Source of the DNA: Candidatus Cloacimonadota bacterium
GTDB taxonomy: Bacteria > Cloacimonadota > Cloacimonadia > Cloacimonadales > TCS61
Direction of reading: 5' to 3'
DNA: 40,665 nucleotides
Assembly: GCA_021735645.1 (NCBI GenBank)
Contig: JAIPGP010000026.1
Span: forward strand, 1 to 40,665
The translations under genes and the position numbers were made by a program. Below are positions 14,887 to 26,051 of this stretch, piece after piece. A model generated the notes under the pieces. It saw only the letters and a program-made list of their open reading frames with translations. It ran no database searches and had not been told where the DNA came from. How positions within the stretch are numbered: the stretch's first letter is position 1; each line of letters starts with the position of its first letter.

Positions 14887-17800
14887 ATGAAAAGAGGAAT
14901 TCTATTTGTTATTTTGTTGATGATTTTAGTAACCGTATATGCGCAGGGGCCACATCCTATGTACATTGAGATCAGAAATGCCCAAAATGAAATACCGGTG
15001 GCAGGTGATATCAGCTTTGAAGCCTGGCTGCTTTCTAATCCCCAGGAAGTCCTTGATGAGAATGTTACAGATTGCTATTATCCCGCATTTGGTTCCACCG
15101 TAAAGGTGAATTGTGGTCAGTTCAGTACCTGGACAGCCGGAGATATTCTTCATCTGGATGTACTGGAAATTTCTTCCGGAGATATGGGCACAGGAGAATA
15201 TGTTCTCACTTTTGATGCTTCCCAGTTTTTCTGGATGGAAGATGGCGGTATATATCTCGGTGGTGCTATGCCCCCTGATATTGAGCTGCCCGAGGAATTT
15301 TCCACTGATGAAGACGTGGCACTAAGTATAGATTTTGCAACTTATATCAGCGGAATTTATTCCGGCATTACAGCTTCCGGAGGTGAAAATATTAATGTCT
15401 CTATAATCGGCAGTATGGTGACATTTTCGACTGCAGAAAACTGGAATGGCAGTGAATTGATCAGTTTTGAAGTTACCGGCATTGAAGAAAATGACTCTGA
15501 TTCTGTCATAATAGTGGTCAACCCTGTTAATGATCCGCCTGATCTAAACATGCCTGCCCAATTTCAATTCAATGAAGATAGCAGTTTCAGCGAAGACATC
15601 AGCCAGTATGCCAGTGATGTGGAAGGTGATATTCTTAGTTATGCTGTTACAGGCAGTGCTCATATTACGGCAGAAATAACCGGCTCGCAATTAAATTTAT
15701 CTGCAGAGGCAAACTGGAATGGTACTGAATATATCACAATTATGGTTTCAGATGATCAAAGACGGGAAACTACTACAATAGATATGATGGTGATCGTAAA
15801 CCCTATGAATGATGCTCCGGTGCTGGATATTCCGGAGCAGCTCACTTTTCAGGCAGGAACCCCGGCAGTTATCGATTTTAGTCAGTTCATGGATGATATT
15901 GATGGGGATATATTAACAATTTCTGTTTATGGCGAAGATGACCTGGAAGTTGAAATAACCGGCAGTAATGTCACTTTCAATTATCCTCAGGACTGGCATG
16001 GCAGCGAAGAACTGATATTTACTGTTGATGATAATGTCTTTAGGCTAACAGCCAGTGACACAGTAATGATCAATATATTTTATCCTGAAGACACTATTTT
16101 ATCCTGCCAGGATTATGAGATCAATGACGGACAATCTCTGACAGTGCCAATATACACAACTGAGATATTTGAAGGATGGTCTCTTCCTTCTTATGAACTG
16201 CATTTTGCTTATGACCCTACGATATTGACCTATAATGATTATTCGATTACTAATACAATATTGTCTGGCGGGGTTGCTGTAGTTGAAGAAAATGAGCCGG
16301 GCTATTTAGTAATTAATTATGCCAATTATCTGCCCATGAGCGGAGCAGGTGCCTTGATCGAGCTGGAATTTGAGGCAGTATGTTTCGGCGATTCACCTCT
16401 TGATATCGTGCTGTGCATGATGGGAGCACAGGGTCTCTCCGAGTTTATCGATGGCGAAGTGATTGTAAATGATATTGGCCTCGCACATCCACCAGTAGCA
16501 GATGCCGGAGATAATTTCGGCGTGGTTTCAGGAAGTGAAGGAACTTTGGATGGCAGCGGGTCTTTTGATCCTGATGGCGATGATATCACTTATTTATGGG
16601 ATTCTCCCGCAGAAATCGTGATCAGTGAGCCCACTTCGGCAATTACTCAGTTCACTGCCCCTATCGTGATGGATGATACTGATTTTATTGTAACGTTAAC
16701 TGTATCGGACGGACAATATTTCACTTCTGATTTTGTAGTAGTAACCGTTAACTATATGAATCATGCTCCCGAAATAGCTCTGCCGGCAGAATTTAATTTT
16801 GCAGAAGATGAACTGCTACTGCTTGATTTTAGCGAATATGTGAATGATATTGATGAAGATAATCTTAGCTTAGCAGTAACCGGCAATGAAAATATAATAG
16901 TTAGTTTCGACGATTTGGAAGTGGAATTATCGGCAGCAGTTAACTGGAATGGCTCAGAAACACTCACCTTTATCGTAAGTGATAATATCCAGCGTCTGGA
17001 AGCTGAAGCAGATGTTGTGATAAACGTAAGTGCTGTTAATGATCAGCCGCATGCTGATGCCGGTATGAATAGCAATGGCAGAGATGGAGAAGTTATCTCC
17101 CTGGATGGCTCTGCCTCCTGGGATGTGGAAACTGAAGAGCTGGAATATATCTGGATAGCTCCGGCCGGGGTGATGCTGAGTGATCCCTATGCTGTCAGCC
17201 CCACCTTCACTGCTCCCCAGGTAGTTGATCCTACAGAATATGAATTTACTCTGCAGGTATCTGACGGAGAATTGCAGGATGAAGACAGCGTGATAATTAC
17301 TATTCAGGACGATGAGCCAGTGCTTCTAAACGTGGAATTACTCCCGGAAAATAATGCCTTGTTCACCTGGTTTGCCCCAGGCAGCGGTGGTAGTGGTGAA
17401 GAACTTGATCAGGGTTTTGAAGGCATAATCCTTCCTCAAGGCTGGTTGAATATTGATCATGACGGGGATGGCTATGGCTGGTATATTTATGTTCAGTCAC
17501 CGCATTCCGGCTCCAGCTCCGCTGGCAGTCAATCTTATCATCCCACTTCCGGAGCTCTAACCCCTGATAACTGGCTGATCTCACCTGAAATAGAAATTGG
17601 CGGCTTATCGGAACTCCGCTTCTGGATGGCTGCTCAGGATGAATTTTACCCGCAGGAACATTTTGCTGTCTTAGTCTCTGATTCCGGTACTGCTATTGAT
17701 AATTTCCAGGAAACGCTGGTGGAAGAAACTCTGGAAAACGATAACTGGATTGAATATAGCATTAGCCTGACAGCCTGGGCTGGCAGCTCTATCAATATTG

Positions 17801-18399
17801 CCTGGCGGCATTATGATGTAACTGATCAGTTCATTCTAAAGCTGGATGATGTGCAGGTGATTAATACTGCTACCAGAGCAGTAGAATTTTCGGCTGATTT
17901 CAATAGCGGGGAAGCAATAGAATTTGGCTTGCAGTCTGGCAGTAGAAATCGTGACCTGCTGGGTTATAATGTCTTTCTGGATAATGTATCCCAGGGATTT
18001 GTGGAATCCAGAGAATATCTTTTTGAAAATGTGGTCGGTGAACATGTAGCCGGAGTGCAGGCAGTATATGATTACGGTGTTTCTGAAATTGTGGATACTA
18101 CCTTCAATCATACTGCAAATGATCTGGATATCCCACTGATAACTGGCTTAAATAGGATTTATCCCAATCCCTTCAACCCTGAAACCCGCATTGAATTCAG
18201 TCTGGCAGAACCAGGAAATGTACTGATTGAGGTCTATAATGTCAAAGGTCAGAAAGTGAAAGTTATAATGAATGCTGATCTAGCTGCCGGAAATCATGAA
18301 ATTTCCTGGCAGGCGGATAATTGTGCTTCAGGAATATATTTCCTGAGCATGCGAACTCGTGACTATACAAAAACGGAGAAATTAATCCTCCTGAAATAG
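14887..18399 (+). CDS. Giant multidomain secreted T9SS cargo, adhesin-like
   Basis: This 1170-aa protein has a signal peptide (residues 1-20, ending VYAQG). Domains in order: a short N-terminal beta domain; three cadherin/Ig-like repeats (about 130-395) marked by NWNGSE and VNDPP/MNDAP; a cohesin-like domain (about 400-530, FAYDPTILTYNDY); a PKD-like domain (VADAGDNFG...DGSGSFDPDGD); a fourth NWNGSE repeat; a second PKD-like domain; a choice-of-anchor J/cleaved-adhesin-like domain (about 835-1000, GFEGIILPQGWLNIDHDGDG); and a C-terminal T9SS sorting tail (IYPNPFNPETRIEFSL to LILLK). It is probably surface-displayed and may bind polysaccharide, protein or neighbouring cells. AGGAG precedes the ATG. 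A strong terminator follows. Confidence 0.9.
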   Translation: MKRGILFVILLMILVTVYAQGPHPMYIEIRNAQNEIPVAGDISFEAWLLSNPQEVLDENVTDCYYPAFGSTVKVNCGQFSTWTAGDILHLDVLEISSGDMGTGEYVLTFDASQFFWMEDGGIYLGGAMPPDIELPEEFSTDEDVALSIDFATYISGIYSGITASGGENINVSIIGSMVTFSTAENWNGSELISFEVTGIEENDSDSVIIVVNPVNDPPDLNMPAQFQFNEDSSFSEDISQYASDVEGDILSYAVTGSAHITAEITGSQLNLSAEANWNGTEYITIMVSDDQRRETTTIDMMVIVNPMNDAPVLDIPEQLTFQAGTPAVIDFSQFMDDIDGDILTISVYGEDDLEVEITGSNVTFNYPQDWHGSEELIFTVDDNVFRLTASDTVMINIFYPEDTILSCQDYEINDGQSLTVPIYTTEIFEGWSLPSYELHFAYDPTILTYNDYSITNTILSGGVAVVEENEPGYLVINYANYLPMSGAGALIELEFEAVCFGDSPLDIVLCMMGAQGLSEFIDGEVIVNDIGLAHPPVADAGDNFGVVSGSEGTLDGSGSFDPDGDDITYLWDSPAEIVISEPTSAITQFTAPIVMDDTDFIVTLTVSDGQYFTSDFVVVTVNYMNHAPEIALPAEFNFAEDELLLLDFSEYVNDIDEDNLSLAVTGNENIIVSFDDLEVELSAAVNWNGSETLTFIVSDNIQRLEAEADVVINVSAVNDQPHADAGMNSNGRDGEVISLDGSASWDVETEELEYIWIAPAGVMLSDPYAVSPTFTAPQVVDPTEYEFTLQVSDGELQDEDSVIITIQDDEPVLLNVELLPENNALFTWFAPGSGGSGEELDQGFEGIILPQGWLNIDHDGDGYGWYIYVQSPHSGSSSAGSQSYHPTSGALTPDNWLISPEIEIGGLSELRFWMAAQDEFYPQEHFAVLVSDSGTAIDNFQETLVEETLENDNWIEYSISLTAWAGSSINIAWRHYDVTDQFILKLDDVQVINTATRAVEFSADFNSGEAIEFGLQSGSRNRDLLGYNVFLDNVSQGFVESREYLFENVVGEHVAGVQAVYDYGVSEIVDTTFNHTANDLDIPLITGLNRIYPNPFNPETRIEFSLAEPGNVLIEVYNVKGQKVKVIMNADLAAGNHEISWQADNCASGIYFLSMRTRDYTKTEKLILLK

Positions 18400-18867: not shown

Positions 18868-18897
18868 TTGACAATATTAATAAGGTTTACGTTATCC
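18868..18897 (+). promoter_or_regulatory. Possible promoter of the four-gene membrane operon
   Basis: TTGACA at 18868-18873 is followed after 18 bases by TTATCC (18892-18897), about 25 bp before the preferred ATG. The -35 is perfect; the -10 is weak. Confidence 0.4.
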
Positions 18898-18921
18898 AGA
18901 TAAAGAAATATGGGAGTATAT

Positions 18922-20001
18922 ATGAGAAAAATATTGATTTTCCTGATATTATTTGCGATTTACTCACTATTTGCCAGCCCTCCGGAACTTATTGTGAAAG
19001 ACATGCCTAACGACGATGGTACTGGCGCAAGCCTTAGCTGGAATGTCGGAGAGTTGCCATTTGAAGAAGTCACTATCTGGCGGGGCGAGGAAATAATCCT
19101 GCAAAGCACATCACCCTCCGGCGAATTCACGGATAAAAATTTGAAAGCCGGGCAGGAATATGAATACAGTATGGTTATCAAGCCTGATAATCTTACACTG
19201 GCTGTAGTATTATTTTCTCCCAAACCGGAATATTTCAATACTGATAAGATAACTTTATTGATCTTTTTAGTTCTTGTATCAGCGGCAATTATCTATTTTA
19301 TCATCTCTGCCAGAACCGGGAAAGAACTGTATATTAGAAAGATTTCCGGACTGGAATCCATCGATGAAGCAGTAGGAAGAGCTACGGAAATGGGACAGCC
19401 CATTCTCTTTGTCCCGGGTATTAATGACATCGATGATATGCAGACGATAGCCGGACTCACAATTTTGCGGAAAGTTGCCGAGAAAGCTGCTGCATACGAT
19501 ACAAAAATAATTGTCCCTGTTGCCAGGTCAATGGTGCTCAGCACTGCCAAAGAAGTGGTTCGCACTGCCTATATTCAGGCTGGCAGACCAGATGCGTATC
19601 AGGAGGATAGCGTTTTTTACCTCACTGATGACCAGTTTGGCTATGTCTCCGGTGTGGACGGCATTATCGTGCGGGAAAAACCAGCTGCTAATTTCCTGCT
19701 CGGCGCGTTTTATGCCGAATCATTGATTCTAGCTGAAACCGGATTCTCTTCCGGGGCTATTCAAGTGGCGGGAACTGCCATGCCCTCGCAATTACCCTTC
19801 TTTGTCGCTGCCTGTGATTATACCCTGATCGGAGAAGAATTATTTGCTGCCAGTGCTTATCTCTCCCGTGATCCGCAGCAGCTTGGCAGTTTGAAAGGTC
19901 AGGATTTTGGCAAAGCAGTATTTGTGATTGTGCTGCTGCTTGGTATTATCCTGGAAATCATTAATGTTCATATCCTGAAAGATTACATGATCATCCACTA
20001 A
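18922..20001 (+). CDS. DUF6754-like membrane protein, gene 1 of unknown operon
   Basis: From the preferred start this is 359 aa. An earlier in-frame ATG at 18910 is less likely because GGGAG stands five bases before 18922. The order is a signal peptide (ending LFAS), an extracytoplasmic fibronectin-III-like domain (about 20-100), a transmembrane helix (TLLIFLVLVSAAIIYFIIS), a large conserved cytoplasmic domain (QPILFVPGINDIDD, then IIVPVARSMV, REKPAANFLLGAFYAESLIL, AETGFSSGAIQVAGTA, DYTLIGEELFAASAYL), and a C-terminal helix (FVIVLLLGIILEII). The central domain resembles DUF6754 proteins, whose function is not known. The membrane topology and conserved glycine-rich block suggest binding of a partner or ligand, but nothing definite. 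It is followed 10 bp later by gene 2. Confidence 0.75.
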   Translation: MRKILIFLILFAIYSLFASPPELIVKDMPNDDGTGASLSWNVGELPFEEVTIWRGEEIILQSTSPSGEFTDKNLKAGQEYEYSMVIKPDNLTLAVVLFSPKPEYFNTDKITLLIFLVLVSAAIIYFIISARTGKELYIRKISGLESIDEAVGRATEMGQPILFVPGINDIDDMQTIAGLTILRKVAEKAAAYDTKIIVPVARSMVLSTAKEVVRTAYIQAGRPDAYQEDSVFYLTDDQFGYVSGVDGIIVREKPAANFLLGAFYAESLILAETGFSSGAIQVAGTAMPSQLPFFVAACDYTLIGEELFAASAYLSRDPQQLGSLKGQDFGKAVFVIVLLLGIILEIINVHILKDYMIIH

Positions 20002-20011
20002 AGGAGAGGCA

Positions 20012-20704
20012 ATGAAGATAAAAATACCACTATTAATTACTCTGATCACGGGATTGATAATAATCATCTCCGAATTTATCCCAGCTCAGCCCTTTCCCAA
20101 AGTGAGTACTAACCTGGAAACATGGGTGATGATAATCTCTGGATTTGCCATGCTGCTCGGTCTGCTCAGCTTGTTTAAAGTCAATATTCTCAAAATACAA
20201 TTTAAAGCTCCTAACTGGCAATATTCCATCATTACACTCGTAAGCTGCCTGGTGATGATCGTGCTGGGTTTCTTATGGGGTACTGATAAACAAATCGGGT
20301 TAATGGGTCATGGTGAAGGTATCCAAAGCGTATTAGGCTCCAAACCTTTTGACTACCTGTTCAATAATATCTATCAGCATCTGGCTGCTACCATGTTTGC
20401 ACTGCTGGCTTTTTTCATCGCCTCAGCAGCCTATCGTGCCTTTATTGGCAGAACTATGGAAAGCAAGCTGCTCTTAATTGCCGCCATTATCGTGATGCTG
20501 GGTAGAACCAGCCTGGGTAGCTGGCTAACGGGATTTCTACCTGATACTTCTTTTTTTCACCTGCCAAACCTGGCGGAATTTATTATGAAATACCCTAATA
20601 CAGCGGGTCAAAGAGCAATTATGATCGGCTCCGGACTGGGTGTGATCGGCTCTAGTTTACGCATTCTCCTGGGCATTGAAAGAATGTGGCTGGGAGGTGA
20701 ATAA
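20012..20704 (+). CDS. Multi-spanning membrane protein, gene 2 of unknown operon
   Basis: This 230-aa protein has about five or six hydrophobic segments (IPLLITLITGLIIIISEF, WVMIISGFAMLLGLLSLF, SIITLVSCLVMIVLGFLW, MFALLAFFIASAAYRAF, LLLIAAIIVMLGRTSLG and a last one near IMIGSGLGVIGSSLRILL). Charged or polar stretches are few; GHGEGIQSVLGSKPFDYLF is the longest loop. AGGAG lies just upstream. The stop overlaps the next ATG by one base (TAATG). I do not recognise a named family. Confidence 0.75.
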   Translation: MKIKIPLLITLITGLIIIISEFIPAQPFPKVSTNLETWVMIISGFAMLLGLLSLFKVNILKIQFKAPNWQYSIITLVSCLVMIVLGFLWGTDKQIGLMGHGEGIQSVLGSKPFDYLFNNIYQHLAATMFALLAFFIASAAYRAFIGRTMESKLLLIAAIIVMLGRTSLGSWLTGFLPDTSFFHLPNLAEFIMKYPNTAGQRAIMIGSGLGVIGSSLRILLGIERMWLGGE

Positions 20705-21546
20705 TGGCTCAAGAACGCAAACCCCTTGATAGAAGAATCATTTTCCTCCTCGTATTTATTGGCGTGGCTTTACCTATTCTCATTAAAGTTGGACTGCCCA
20801 TTGAAACTACTGAAAATGTGGAACTCGTCTATAACCTGGTGGAAAATACTCCCGCAGGTTCTCATGTACTTATCTCATTTGATTATGATCCTTCCACCAA
20901 ACCGGAAATCCATCCCCAGGCTACTGCTGTGATCAAACATGCCCTGCTTAAGAAACAAAAAATAATCTGCATGGCATTATGGCCCATGGGCGTGAAAATG
21001 TGCGAACAGATTTTCGCTACTCTGGAAGAAGATGGTATTAAACCCGTATATGGCGAAGACTGGGTGAATGTAGGTTATAAATCCGGGGGAGCCATCAGTT
21101 TGAAAGCGTTGGGTAAAGACTTTCAAAAAGTATTTACTCAGGATACTAATGGAACCCTGATTGATGATATTCCGGCAATGCAAGGTATCAGAAACCTGCA
21201 GGATTTTCAGTATGTGATGTCCTTTTCCGCTGGCGCACCCGGTATCAAAGAATGGGTGCAGGTAGGACATGATATGTTTAAAACTCCCGTGTCCGGTGGT
21301 GTAACTGCCGTTTCTGCACCTTCTATCCTGCCTTATGTAAATGAGCAGCAGCAGCTTACTGGTCTCCTGGGCGGTATGAAGGCTGCAGCGGAATATGAAG
21401 CACTTATCGGCATTCCCGGAACTGCTACTCAGGGTATGGACGCTCAAAGCTTTGCCCACTTGATAATTATCATCCTGATAATTATTGGTAATGTTAATTA
21501 TTTCCATAATAAAAAGATCAAAGCTCTTCAGGAGGCAGCAAAATGA
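20704..21546 (+). CDS. Two-helix membrane protein with large soluble domain, gene 3 of unknown operon
   Basis: In this 280-aa protein TM1 (IIFLLVFIGVALPILIKV) and a C-terminal TM (HLIIIILIIIGNVNYF) bracket a soluble alpha/beta domain of about 210 residues. In it HVLISFDYDPSTKPEIHP and KQKIICMALWPMGVKMCEQ look like successive strand-helix units, followed by the glycine-rich KSGGAISLKALG. The N-in, C-in topology would put this domain outside the cytoplasm, but that is a prediction. GGAGGTG precedes the start. The gene overlaps its neighbours on both sides (TAATG upstream, ATGA downstream). Function unknown. Confidence 0.75.
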   Translation: MAQERKPLDRRIIFLLVFIGVALPILIKVGLPIETTENVELVYNLVENTPAGSHVLISFDYDPSTKPEIHPQATAVIKHALLKKQKIICMALWPMGVKMCEQIFATLEEDGIKPVYGEDWVNVGYKSGGAISLKALGKDFQKVFTQDTNGTLIDDIPAMQGIRNLQDFQYVMSFSAGAPGIKEWVQVGHDMFKTPVSGGVTAVSAPSILPYVNEQQQLTGLLGGMKAAAEYEALIGIPGTATQGMDAQSFAHLIIIILIIIGNVNYFHNKKIKALQEAAK

Positions 21547-22184
21547 TAACATTCTTTGAAACTCTGGGTATCTGGATTGGTGCTGTGATGACCTTTGCCA
21601 TTTTCAGTTTCCTCTACAAAGATAATCCGTTTTATAAGATTGCTGAACAGATTTTCGTGGGACTTTCAGCTGGATACTGGTTTGTATATACCATCTATAA
21701 TATAGTGCTGCCCAACCTGATAATACCTCTGAAAACAGATTTCAGGGCAAACTTCCTGCTGCTGGTTCCAGGAATTCTGGGGATATTCATGCTGATGCGG
21801 ATAATCCCCAAAACCGAGTGGTTCTCCAGATTCCCCATGGCTCTCATGATCGGTTCTTCTGCCGGGCTCGGTATGCTTACATATACTAAGAGTGATATCA
21901 TCAAGCAATTGACCGCTACTATGATGAACCCCTTTGATGGAGGTGACTGGATTGTGATATTAGGTCAAACTCTCCTGATCCTGGGAACTATCACCGGAGT
22001 GATATATTTCTTCTTTTCTGCCCGGCATAAGGGAGCAATCGGAGTATTATCACGCATCGGGATTTACTTCCTGATGATCTCCTTTGGCGGAGCTTTCGGC
22101 TACACTGCCATGGCGAGGATTTCTCTGCTGATCGGCAGACTGCAATTCATCCTGGGAGACTGGCTAGGCTTGATCCATCCCTGA
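21543..22184 (+). CDS. Multi-spanning membrane protein, gene 4 of unknown operon
   Basis: This 213-aa protein has about six hydrophobic segments (ETLGIWIGAVMTFAIFSFLY, SAGYWFVYTIYNIVLPNLII, FLLLVPGILGIFMLMRII, ALMIGSSAGLGMLTY, VILGQTLLILGTITGVIYFF, GIYFLMISFGGAFGY). Between them lie short loops with conserved-looking KDNPFYKIAEQIFVG. AGGAGG precedes the start and the ATG overlaps the upstream stop as ATGA. It closes the operon and is followed by an inverted repeat that may terminate transcription. Function unknown. Confidence 0.75.
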   Translation: MITFFETLGIWIGAVMTFAIFSFLYKDNPFYKIAEQIFVGLSAGYWFVYTIYNIVLPNLIIPLKTDFRANFLLLVPGILGIFMLMRIIPKTEWFSRFPMALMIGSSAGLGMLTYTKSDIIKQLTATMMNPFDGGDWIVILGQTLLILGTITGVIYFFFSARHKGAIGVLSRIGIYFLMISFGGAFGYTAMARISLLIGRLQFILGDWLGLIHP

Positions 22185-22197
22185 TAAAAAATTATAA

Positions 22198-22234
22198 AAC
22201 CTGACCTGAGCAGTTAAACTACCCAGGTCAGGTT
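22198..22234 (+). terminator. Possible terminator of the membrane operon
   Basis: An 11-bp perfect stem AACCTGACCTG/CAGGTCAGGTT with a 15-base loop lies 14 bp after the last stop. The U tract is poor (TTATATCC). Confidence 0.55.
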
Positions 22235-22546: not shown

Positions 22547-23119
22547 TCACCTCGCTCTGCACATATCCAGAATATTATTGCCTGCCTCATCTGCCGTTTC
22601 ACCCAAACTTATAAATCCATGCTTACGCAATAGCACAATACTTTCATCACCCAATATCTCCAGCACATCCTTAACCAGATCTATACTGCCATATTCTGCT
22701 GCCCGAGCCGTGATCTTCAACCCCAAACGCATAAAGTTCTCTTCAAATGCCGGGTAATGCCCATGAAATACCGCCTTTATCTCTGGTCGCGCTTTATAAA
22801 CAGCACCGTGCAGTAAAGTTTCTGAGGAAGGCAGACACCAGCCTTCTGCATCTACTTCCAGTCTGTTAAGATCAAAATTTACCACGCGTACTATCTGGTC
22901 ATTACCCAAATTTGCCAGATTTGCCCCGGAAGCTGTGATCAGAAAACTATTGCCCTCTCTGCAACTCAGGTTTCCACCATACCCGCCTGGTATTGCCGGA
23001 GCACAGTTATTTCTGGCAAGCACGGCAGACCAGTATTTCAGCTCTGCTGCCAGAGGGCTTTCTATAACAGCCTCTTTCAGATTTGTCCTGAATTTTGTAC
23101 CTTTATATTCATTTCCCAT
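22547..23119 (-). CDS. Class II aldolase/adducin-family enzyme, likely methylthioribulose or deoxyribulose phosphate aldolase
   Basis: This 190-aa protein has the family zinc site FHGHYPAF (His119, His121) plus KHG (His167), with Glu100 in PSSETLLH as the likely acid/base. GGNLSCREGNSFLITASGANL is the phosphate-binding region. It follows mtnA with a 43-bp overlap. In other bacteria such pairs run the DHAP shunt: MtnA makes methylthioribulose-1-phosphate (or 5-deoxyribulose-1-phosphate) and the aldolase splits it to dihydroxyacetone phosphate and an aldehyde. MtnB dehydratase is in the same superfamily, so dehydratase activity is the main alternative. An AAGGA site lies about 12 bases upstream. 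Confidence 0.82.
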   Translation of the reverse strand: MGNEYKGTKFRTNLKEAVIESPLAAELKYWSAVLARNNCAPAIPGGYGGNLSCREGNSFLITASGANLANLGNDQIVRVVNFDLNRLEVDAEGWCLPSSETLLHGAVYKARPEIKAVFHGHYPAFEENFMRLGLKITARAAEYGSIDLVKDVLEILGDESIVLLRKHGFISLGETADEAGNNILDMCRAR

Positions 23120-24120
23120 AATTTATCAAAGTCCTTTTTATTGAATATCCCTGCCGGTGTAATATATCCGCTTATATATTTAGCTTTAGTAATATCAAAA
23201 GCCGGATTAAGTGCACCACTCAGTCCCGAGCTAAGTGCCACGCCATTAAAAGTAAGCACTTCCTCAGCCGGTCTTTCCTCTATGGGAATATCCCTTCCAC
23301 TCAGCAGCTGGCGGTAAAAGGTTGAAAATGGTGCCGCAATATAAAAGGGGATATTATTCTCTTTTGCCAGTACAGCTTTGCTATAGGTTCCTATCTTATT
23401 AGCAATATCACCATTTCGCGCTATTCTATCCGCCCCGGTTATCACCAGGTCGATCTTGCCCTGCTGCATATAATATCCGGCAGCATTGTCCGCAATGATA
23501 GCATGATCAATGCCTTCCTGAGCCAGTTCCCAGGCTGTTAACCGCATACCCTGCAACCTGGGTCGCGTCTCATCTACATACACAAAGATGTTCTTGCCGG
23601 CATAATGCGCCTCTCGCATCGGGGCTAAAGCAGTTCCATAGTCCACTGTCGCCAGAGCTCCCGCATTACAGTGCGTTAGTATCCGGCAATTATCTGCTAT
23701 CAGTTCATTACCATATTTCCCGATCAGCAGGCATTCATTAGCAATATTATCCGTAAACTGCTGAGCTGCCCCTATTGCTGCTGCTTTTATCCCTGCTCCT
23801 GTAATCTGCCGGGCTATTGCCTGTTTCACAAAGTCTAACCCATTCTGCAAATCTATTGCGGTAGGACGGCTGGACAGCAGCAGCTGATAACTCCTGTGTA
23901 TATCTTCCCCCTTGCCTATAGCAAGAGCATATCCCAAAGCTGCAACTGCCCCTATAGCCGGTGCACCCCGCACTTTCATAATTTTTATCGCTTCATAAAC
24001 CTGCTCAATATCATGCAATTCTATAATAGTAAATTCAAAAGGCAACTGGTTTTGATCGATGATAAAAAGTCTCCCATTCTCCAGCCAGACTGTCTGATAA
24101 TCCTTATCCTGATAACGCAT
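23077..24120 (-). CDS. mtnA: S-methyl-5-thioribose-1-phosphate isomerase
   Basis: This 347-aa enzyme (from the preferred start) interconverts methylthioribose-1-phosphate and methylthioribulose-1-phosphate in methionine salvage. KVRGAPAIGAVAALGYALAI is diagnostic; Cys151 (THCNAGALAT) and Asp231 (TGADRIARNGD) are 80 residues apart, as in characterised MtnA. A longer frame from 24162 is open, but the ATG at 24120 has GGAAGG upstream, overlaps the previous stop as TAATG, and gives the usual family length. It sits between msrC-like and aldolase genes in an overlapping operon. Confidence 0.95.
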   Translation of the reverse strand: MRYQDKDYQTVWLENGRLFIIDQNQLPFEFTIIELHDIEQVYEAIKIMKVRGAPAIGAVAALGYALAIGKGEDIHRSYQLLLSSRPTAIDLQNGLDFVKQAIARQITGAGIKAAAIGAAQQFTDNIANECLLIGKYGNELIADNCRILTHCNAGALATVDYGTALAPMREAHYAGKNIFVYVDETRPRLQGMRLTAWELAQEGIDHAIIADNAAGYYMQQGKIDLVITGADRIARNGDIANKIGTYSKAVLAKENNIPFYIAAPFSTFYRQLLSGRDIPIEERPAEEVLTFNGVALSSGLSGALNPAFDITKAKYISGYITPAGIFNKKDFDKLWEMNIKVQNSGQI

Positions 24121-24587
24121 TAATCCTTCCGATAAATCAATTCTACTACTTTTGCCAGCCATTCAGCATCTGTCTCGTCAAAAGCAGCTAATTCCCGGCT
24201 GTCCACATCAAAAACCGCTGTAATCTCTCCAGTTGCATCATAAACCGGGATCACTATTTCCGATACAGACCTGCTGTCACAGGCTATGTGCTCCGGAAAT
24301 TTGTTCACATCTTCCACGATCACATTCTTCCTGCCATCTATTCCCGCCCAGCAGACACCGGTATGTGCCGCAAGCACCAGGCAGGCTACAGGTCCCTGAT
24401 AACAGGCAACTGTGAGTTCACCCTCAATAAGCCGATAAAACCCGGTCCAGAAATAATAATCAAATTTGTGATGCAGTACAGCACAGATAGTAGCCATTCT
24501 GGCAGCAGGATCTGCAGTCTTGCTTAATAACTTATGTAATTGACCATATACCCTCAGATACCTGTCTGCCTTACGCGTTTGATCCAT
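24120..24587 (-). CDS. msrC: Free methionine-(R)-sulfoxide reductase (GAF fold)
   Basis: This 155-aa protein is a single GAF domain. It reduces free methionine-R-sulfoxide. The catalytic cysteine trio is present at Cys69 (PVACLVL), Cys79 (TGVCWAG) and Cys103 (HIACDSRSVSEIVIPV), with the same 10 and 24 residue spacing as E. coli fRMsr (84, 94, 118). A Trp replaces the usual Gly after the middle Cys. AGGGG lies upstream of the ATG. Its stop overlaps the mtnA start, tying methionine repair to methylthio-sugar salvage. Confidence 0.92.
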   Translation of the reverse strand: MDQTRKADRYLRVYGQLHKLLSKTADPAARMATICAVLHHKFDYYFWTGFYRLIEGELTVACYQGPVACLVLAAHTGVCWAGIDGRKNVIVEDVNKFPEHIACDSRSVSEIVIPVYDATGEITAVFDVDSRELAAFDETDAEWLAKVVELIYRKD

Positions 24588-24935: not shown

Positions 24936-24989
24936 CTTCAAAACTATACTCCGCAAATTTCTGCTTAGAAAATGGCAAGGAGCAATAAA

Positions 24990-26051
24990 ATGAAATTGTA
25001 TCACGCTATGTCCAAACAAGTGGCAGAAGCCTGGCAGCAGGCAGAAAATCCCATCCTGCTCCATTATACAGGCTCCATGTTTGGCATGGGTTGCGATGCC
25101 AGAAATCAGGCGGCAATCTCACGGCTGAATACTTTGAAGCAGCGTCCCCAATCCAGCGGCTATATTGTGCTGGCAGCAGATTACAGACAGCTCGTGGAAT
25201 ACCAGGTGCAGATGACTCCCAAATTTGCCGGTCTCATCAGACAATATTCACCCGGCTCTCTCACTGCCGTGCTGCCCTGCACCCATCCGCAGCTACAGCA
25301 TCTGCTGCTAAATAATAAAATTGCTTTCCGCATCCCGGCTGCTCCCCTCATCCGCCAGTTTCTCAAAGCTACTGGTTCACCTCTGATAAGTACCAGCATC
25401 AATGTTGCCGGTGCCAGACCTCAAACTGACTACCGCTATATCCTGGCAGGATACAAAACCTGGTTTGATCTTGCTCTCCTGCCCGAAAACGAGCTGGTAG
25501 CACCCGGCGAACCTTCCACAGTAGTCACCACAGAAGATGACAAGCTCATCTGTCTGCGGGAAGGACTACTGGATTTTTCTGAACTTAAAGAAGACTTTGA
25601 GCATCCACTCATCACCTTTGTCTGCACCGGCAATATCTGCCGCAGCCCTCTGGCGGAATACTATTTCCGGCAGCAGGTAGAATTACACGGTCTCCCCTAT
25701 CGCACTGCTTCAGCAGGTTTCATGGCAAGCGATATCAAAATCAGCGAAAACTCCCGCCTTGTCCTGCAGCAGGATGGCATTAATGCCAATGCTCATCTAT
25801 CGGAAACCCTGAATCACGAAATTGTCAGAAGAAGCAGGTTAGTGCTCACTATGACGCAATACCACAAGAATAGCCTCATTAATACCGGCTGGAGAAGTGA
25901 CCATGTGTACACTCTGGCAGAATACATCGGCAAAAATATTGATGTGGAAGACCCCTATCAGGAACCTCTGGAAATGTATCAGCAAACCTATCAGCAAATC
26001 AAATATTTTATTGATCTTCTGATTGCCAAACTGGTGCAGGAGCAAAAATAA
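24990..26051 (+). CDS. TsaC/Sua5-YrdC domain fused to low-molecular-weight tyrosine phosphatase
   Basis: From the preferred start this is 353 aa: AAGGAG lies eight bases before the second ATG and inside the longer frame that begins at 24972. Residues 1-200 are a YrdC-type threonylcarbamoyl-AMP synthase domain (KQRP-SSGYIVL, SPGSLTAVLP, STSINVAGARP), which makes the precursor for tRNA t6A37. Residues 205-350 are an LMW-PTP domain with the full P-loop CTGNICRS (nucleophile Cys212, Arg218) and the general-acid loop DPYQEP (Asp321). Both active sites look intact. The stop overlaps the rnhC start (TAATG). The phosphatase may act on phosphotyrosine or phosphoarginine; the substrate is unknown. Confidence 0.9.
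   Translation: MKLYHAMSKQVAEAWQQAENPILLHYTGSMFGMGCDARNQAAISRLNTLKQRPQSSGYIVLAADYRQLVEYQVQMTPKFAGLIRQYSPGSLTAVLPCTHPQLQHLLLNNKIAFRIPAAPLIRQFLKATGSPLISTSINVAGARPQTDYRYILAGYKTWFDLALLPENELVAPGEPSTVVTTEDDKLICLREGLLDFSELKEDFEHPLITFVCTGNICRSPLAEYYFRQQVELHGLPYRTASAGFMASDIKISENSRLVLQQDGINANAHLSETLNHEIVRRSRLVLTMTQYHKNSLINTGWRSDHVYTLAEYIGKNIDVEDPYQEPLEMYQQTYQQIKYFIDLLIAKLVQEQK

Follow-up and report, generated by a model that had tools for sequence, protein, structure and literature searches.

GlmL, a member of the Pfam family PF13941, is the accessory protein of methylaspartate mutase, and GlmL-type proteins are thought to reactivate or assemble B12 mutases. A MutL-type protein of the same family was found as a partner of the membrane operon described here. 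It gives full-length PF13941 matches and shares the ASKHA motifs (motif 1 in 32 of 32 proteins and motif 2 in 31 of 32), but it is about 150 amino acids longer and falls below the GlmL, Or-4 and GlmL-family cut-offs, scoring 208 against 475 bits for the NCBIfam GlmL equivalog and 152 against 204 for TIGR01319. In the loci read, part of whose neighbours were scanned, its gene lies in an operon with HYB, c10 and the four membrane genes A to D and apparently not with a mutase. HYB, a second partner of 375 amino acids, weakly resembles RnfC_N and NQRA_N at its N-terminus. The match to the RnfC barrel-sandwich domain reaches 25.3 bits against a Pfam cut-off of 25.6, that to NqrA is weak, and the remaining 250 amino acids match no Pfam family. 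Pfam links none of the proteins A to D to subunits of Rnf or NQR, and redox subunits were not seen among the genes of the module. A to D also have no Walker A motif, and an ABC ATPase domain is absent from the Pfam matches of the module. The Tol-Pal and Ton systems likewise span the envelope and are neighbours of the module in Zixibacteria and Stahlbacteria; however, A to D are by Pfam no homologues of TolQ/R/A or ExbB/D, and this neighbourhood is not conserved in other phyla. No characterised transporter or secretion system, nor any other characterised relative of the module, was found by sequence, PDB-fold or literature searches (DUF6754, PF20539 and PF13941). The parts of the module have known folds or Pfam names, but the assembly matches no system tested, and its families were not named in the literature searched.

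The window, a stretch of 40,665 nucleotides from a Candidatus Cloacimonadota bacterium, contains genes A to D but not those of MutL and HYB (Table 1). A sequence-only reading had described the four genes as an operon in which a 10-bp gap is followed by two overlaps (TAATG and ATGA) and each gene is preceded by a ribosome site, all of which were found in place; an alternative in-frame ATG for gene A lies at 18910. This packing is not a matter of chance, since the gaps are conserved over 90 complete sets, with medians of 10 (A-B), 0 (B-C) and -1 (C-D) that match the window. The flanking signals proposed in the same reading were less well sustained. A sigma-70-type scan found no acceptable -10 element within 16-18 nt of the promoter-like TTGACA at 18868; the strongest promoter-like match nearby was located on the minus strand. 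The terminator-like hairpin does fold strongly; the U-tract, however, belongs to the minus strand and faces the converging gene. The statement that the neighbourhood gives no clue to the substrate holds for the window. Just upstream of the operon, 14887-18399 (+) encodes a secreted protein of 1170 amino acids that contains cadherin/PKD repeats, a Cleaved_Adhesin domain and, as a type IX sorting tail, Por_Secre_tail. A run of class II aldolase, methylthioribose-phosphate-isomerase-like (IF-2B family) and GAF-domain genes (22547-24587, -) converges on the operon, and 24972-26051 (+) encodes a single protein in which a Sua5/YrdC domain is fused to a low-molecular-weight phosphotyrosine phosphatase.

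Table 1. Genes and flanking hairpin of the membrane operon, in positions of the window
Feature	Position	Strand	Description
Gene A	18922-20001	+	359 aa; GGGAG 5 nt upstream of 18922
Gene B	20012-20704	+	230 aa; GGAGAGG upstream; 10-bp gap after A
Gene C	20704-21546	+	280 aa; GGAGGTG upstream; TAATG overlap with B
Gene D	21543-22184	+	213 aa; AGGAGG upstream; ATGA overlap with C
Hairpin	22198-22234	.	between D and converging gene at 22547; -20.1 kcal/mol, z -5.6

The products had been described as a protein with a signal peptide, an Fn3 and a DUF6754 domain (A), two multi-spanning proteins (B and D) and a two-helix protein with a soluble domain (C), and Pfam, AF2 models and alignments agree with these descriptions. 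Profile searches, advised for all four proteins, identified A as a DUF6754 protein and left B, C and D without any matching Pfam family; scans of further members of the B, C and D families gave scattered weak matches at most. A is a full-length, high-scoring member of PF20539 (DUF6754), above the gathering score (E 2.2e-124, 414 bits against a cut-off of 27) and with the full domain covered (profile positions 2-256 of 257). PF20539 is a domain of unknown function that brings A no function, partner list or structure, and neither of its names was encountered in the literature searched. The protein begins with a signal peptide or first helix, followed by an Fn3 domain at about 20-100, a transmembrane helix at 107-131, the DUF6754 domain and a C-terminal transmembrane helix. 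Its AF2 model (pLDDT 88) shows the same layout, with a helix, Fn3 and then an alpha/beta domain flanked by two transmembrane helices, and the Fn3 domain is also matched by Foldseek; comparison with solved structures gave just Fn3 and long low-TM fold matches. By the positive-inside rule the Rossmann-like DUF6754 domain is predicted to be cytoplasmic, and the Fn3 domain would be located on the periplasmic side. Among 108 sequences of A, 72 positions are at least 95% conserved, and the Fn3 ectodomain varies in size from about 80 to 740 amino acids.

B possesses about six transmembrane helices. Its loop 92-119, between helices three and four, is predicted to be periplasmic, which fits the gain of about 380 amino acids at this place in some planctomycetes. 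C has one transmembrane helix at each end, the last one long, around a soluble Rossmann-like alpha/beta domain (AF2 model, pLDDT 95) that is predicted to be periplasmic, again by the positive-inside rule. Among solved structures C matched generic Rossmann folds alone, with TM values, normalised by query length, of no more than 0.35; neither the DUF6754 nor the C fold gave a specific match there, and no relative was returned when the PDB was searched with the sequences of A, C, HYB and MutL. Conserved polar residues in the membrane segments, which the sequence-only reading had suggested looking for, are present in C and D. The last helix of C carries near-invariant Q248 (96/99), H252 (97/99) and N263. 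In D, a multi-spanning protein, D27, N28, E35, R86, R96, Q122, H162 and R192 are invariant; E35, R86, H162 and R192 lie within or near membrane segments, and E35 and H162 are conserved in 92 of 92 sequences. A and C have a similar order of strands and helices in their AF2 models, which raises the suspicion that they may have a common origin. Paralogy between A and C and between B and D was also searched for by profile comparison, which yielded nothing.

A scan of species genomes gave 173 relatives of A, and 80 loci were kept; the 115 A genes counted are those in the kept loci together with those of the window's own genome. The order A-B-C-D is kept across phyla. A is followed by B-C-D in 90 of the 115 sets, another 22 are cut by contig ends, and the remaining three are gene-calling artefacts in which tblastn finds all four genes. 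The pairwise distances obtained for the four genes show mutual correlations of 0.87-0.94. When multi-set genomes are compared, all four genes point to one and the same nearest counterpart set in 208 of 298 cases. This joint divergence and these shared counterparts indicate that A-B-C-D sets are inherited as units. Often a genome carries two or three sets that are ancient paralogues. On contig 45 this genome has its second set, with an A of 996 amino acids. In a tree of 92 sets this one joins the third Zixibacteria set with a clade support of 1.0, the inner supports being mixed; either a duplication that predates these phyla or the transfer of a set would account for this.

ABCD sets are found in at least eight phyla. 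Relatives of A occur in Cloacimonadota, Zixibacteria, Latescibacterota, Stahlbacteria/WOR-3, Fermentibacteria, Coatesbacteria, Planctomycetes (mainly Phycisphaerae), Calditrichota and others, these names being database labels, some of them possibly mis-binned. Separate occurrence of the four genes, which would speak against the complex, was encountered in a weak form: the cluster is split in some planctomycetes, with MutL-HYB-A lacking B, C and D at two loci and A and HYB lacking B-D at a third, but the parts stay in the same genome. C is located elsewhere in four split-cluster genomes, with B and D alongside it in two. In each of 22 genomes A and C are either both present or both absent (C in 11 of 11 with A and in 0 of 11 without). 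These genomes were chosen for the search and are not a random sample, and in four of them C is unlinked from A.

The reading of the four proteins as a membrane complex is well supported by gene order, joint divergence and the agreement of A with C, but it was incomplete, as it covered the membrane half only. Outside Cloacimonadota, ABCD usually adjoins the PF13941 MutL-type ASKHA protein and HYB, often together with the small protein c10 and sometimes c18, and two loci contain the whole operon c18-c10-MutL-HYB-A-B-C-D. This genome has c10-MutL-HYB on contig 131, and on contig 9 MutL and HYB are fused into one protein of 998 amino acids. In another Cloacimonadota genome fused MutL-HYB is directly followed by a long A and B-C-D. 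HYB is present in 97 of 99 Cloacimonadota genomes and in all 71 of the high-quality ones; in other phyla, 49 of 50 genomes with ABCD also have it. Among 118 Planctomycetota genomes, 25 possess A and HYB, four A only, one HYB only and 88 neither, an agreement of 113/118 (Fisher p 2e-20, shared ancestry ignored). MutL is retained in two of the four genomes with A only and absent from 20 of 20 sampled genomes without A and HYB. That the MutL-type ASKHA protein, the barrel-sandwich HYB and the small protein belong to the ABCD module is well supported by these distributions.

We propose, with a probability of roughly 0.45, that ABCD forms the membrane core of an envelope-spanning machine of which MutL and HYB, often with c10, are the cytoplasmic part that would energise or regulate it. 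That A-B-C-D, MutL and HYB form one module is itself well supported, by gene order, joint divergence, A/C co-occurrence, adjacency to or co-occurrence with MutL and HYB, the MutL-HYB fusion and the intact ASKHA motifs. ATP hydrolysis by MutL would power the machine, and HYB would relay the energy to the cytoplasmic DUF6754 domain of A, by which a change in the B/C/D membrane part would be driven. This part would then act on a component of the envelope, which on the outer side would be contacted by the variable Fn3 ectodomain of A together with the periplasmic domain of C. Paralogous sets whose A ectodomains differ would handle different substrates or partners. As to function, we infer, and hold weakly, that the machine most likely uses ATP to export an envelope component or to put it in place. 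Several points count against the machine: the two Cloacimonadota genomes, taken up below, in which c10-MutL-HYB persists while A and C are absent, the lack of a fold match that names a mechanism, the disagreement of neighbour genes on a role (fatty-acid synthesis, Tol-Pal, ExbB-ExbD), and the dependence of its membrane sidedness on the positive-inside rule. It is more doubtful that the module represents a membrane machine of a new class, of ancient origin and nearly universal in some phyla, in which an ASKHA-fold (actin/hydantoinase-type) ATPase working through a barrel-sandwich adaptor takes the place of an ABC, P-type, rotary or AAA motor. Since A is retained in 97 of the 99 genomes sampled from Cloacimonadota, a phylum with genomes of 1.4-4 Mb, the system likely does something basic. 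DUF6754, three unnamed membrane families, a MutL-type ATPase and a barrel-sandwich protein, six or seven unknowns in all, are thereby turned into one testable question. Several single-contig planctomycetes are among the hosts, and knock-outs may be possible if these include cultured strains.

The same parts might instead form an envelope tether or force transducer, in which the ASKHA protein is a switch or scaffold and the cytoplasm is linked, without transport, to the outer membrane or a cell-surface layer in growth or division. Fn3 ectodomains of such variable size would suit this role, and so would the Zixibacteria loci with MutL-c13-HYB directly upstream of a tolQ-tolR-tolA-tolB-pal-like operon and those of Stahlbacteria with ExbB-ExbD-TonB after ABCD. 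We consider it unlikely, as the invariant polar residues in the membrane segments of C and D look beyond an anchor role and the Tol-Pal neighbourhood was seen only at Zixibacteria-type loci. Two Cloacimonadota genomes hold c10-MutL-HYB without A and C, so that MutL-HYB may have a further role; together with the PF13941 membership of MutL, this is consistent with a chaperone or maturation system that reactivates or assembles something in the manner of GlmL and has ABCD as one client. The missed NCBIfam GlmL cut-off makes this quite unlikely, and a dedicated partner fits better with the shared operons and with the presence of both A and HYB in 25 of the 30 Planctomycetota that have either. A membrane enzyme built like Rnf or NQR, coupled to ions or electrons and containing HYB as its barrel-sandwich subunit, is improbable: the near-cut-off RnfC match, the weak NqrA match and the conserved H, Q and N of the membrane helices stand against the absence of CxxC from A-D and HYB, the absence of a consistent flavin or iron-sulfur domain from the Pfam matches of A-D and the fact that, to our knowledge, Rnf and NQR have no ASKHA partner.

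For the proposed envelope-spanning machine, neighbour genes were also considered as a source of function. The fatty-acid genes of Phycisphaerae, Tol-Pal, ExbB/ExbD, PPDK and SprA were each rejected, being limited to one or a few lineages. Several of these neighbourhoods may be recorded on their own account. At four Phycisphaerae loci, plsX-, fabH-, fabG- and fabF-like genes, named by eye from sequence, are located after ABCD. On contig 9 of this genome (L088, 2407-12682) the MutL-HYB fusion is followed by a coaX-like gene and by the gene of a 2092-aa SprA-type secretion protein. SprA is not beside the fusion at the other Cloacimonadota loci read, and one WOR-3 locus has an SprA-like gene near its MutL-HYB pair. 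Finally, tandem repeats of the 'RPGMVWIRKN' type, in several frames, are found beside c10-MutL-HYB at L087 (6482-6910).
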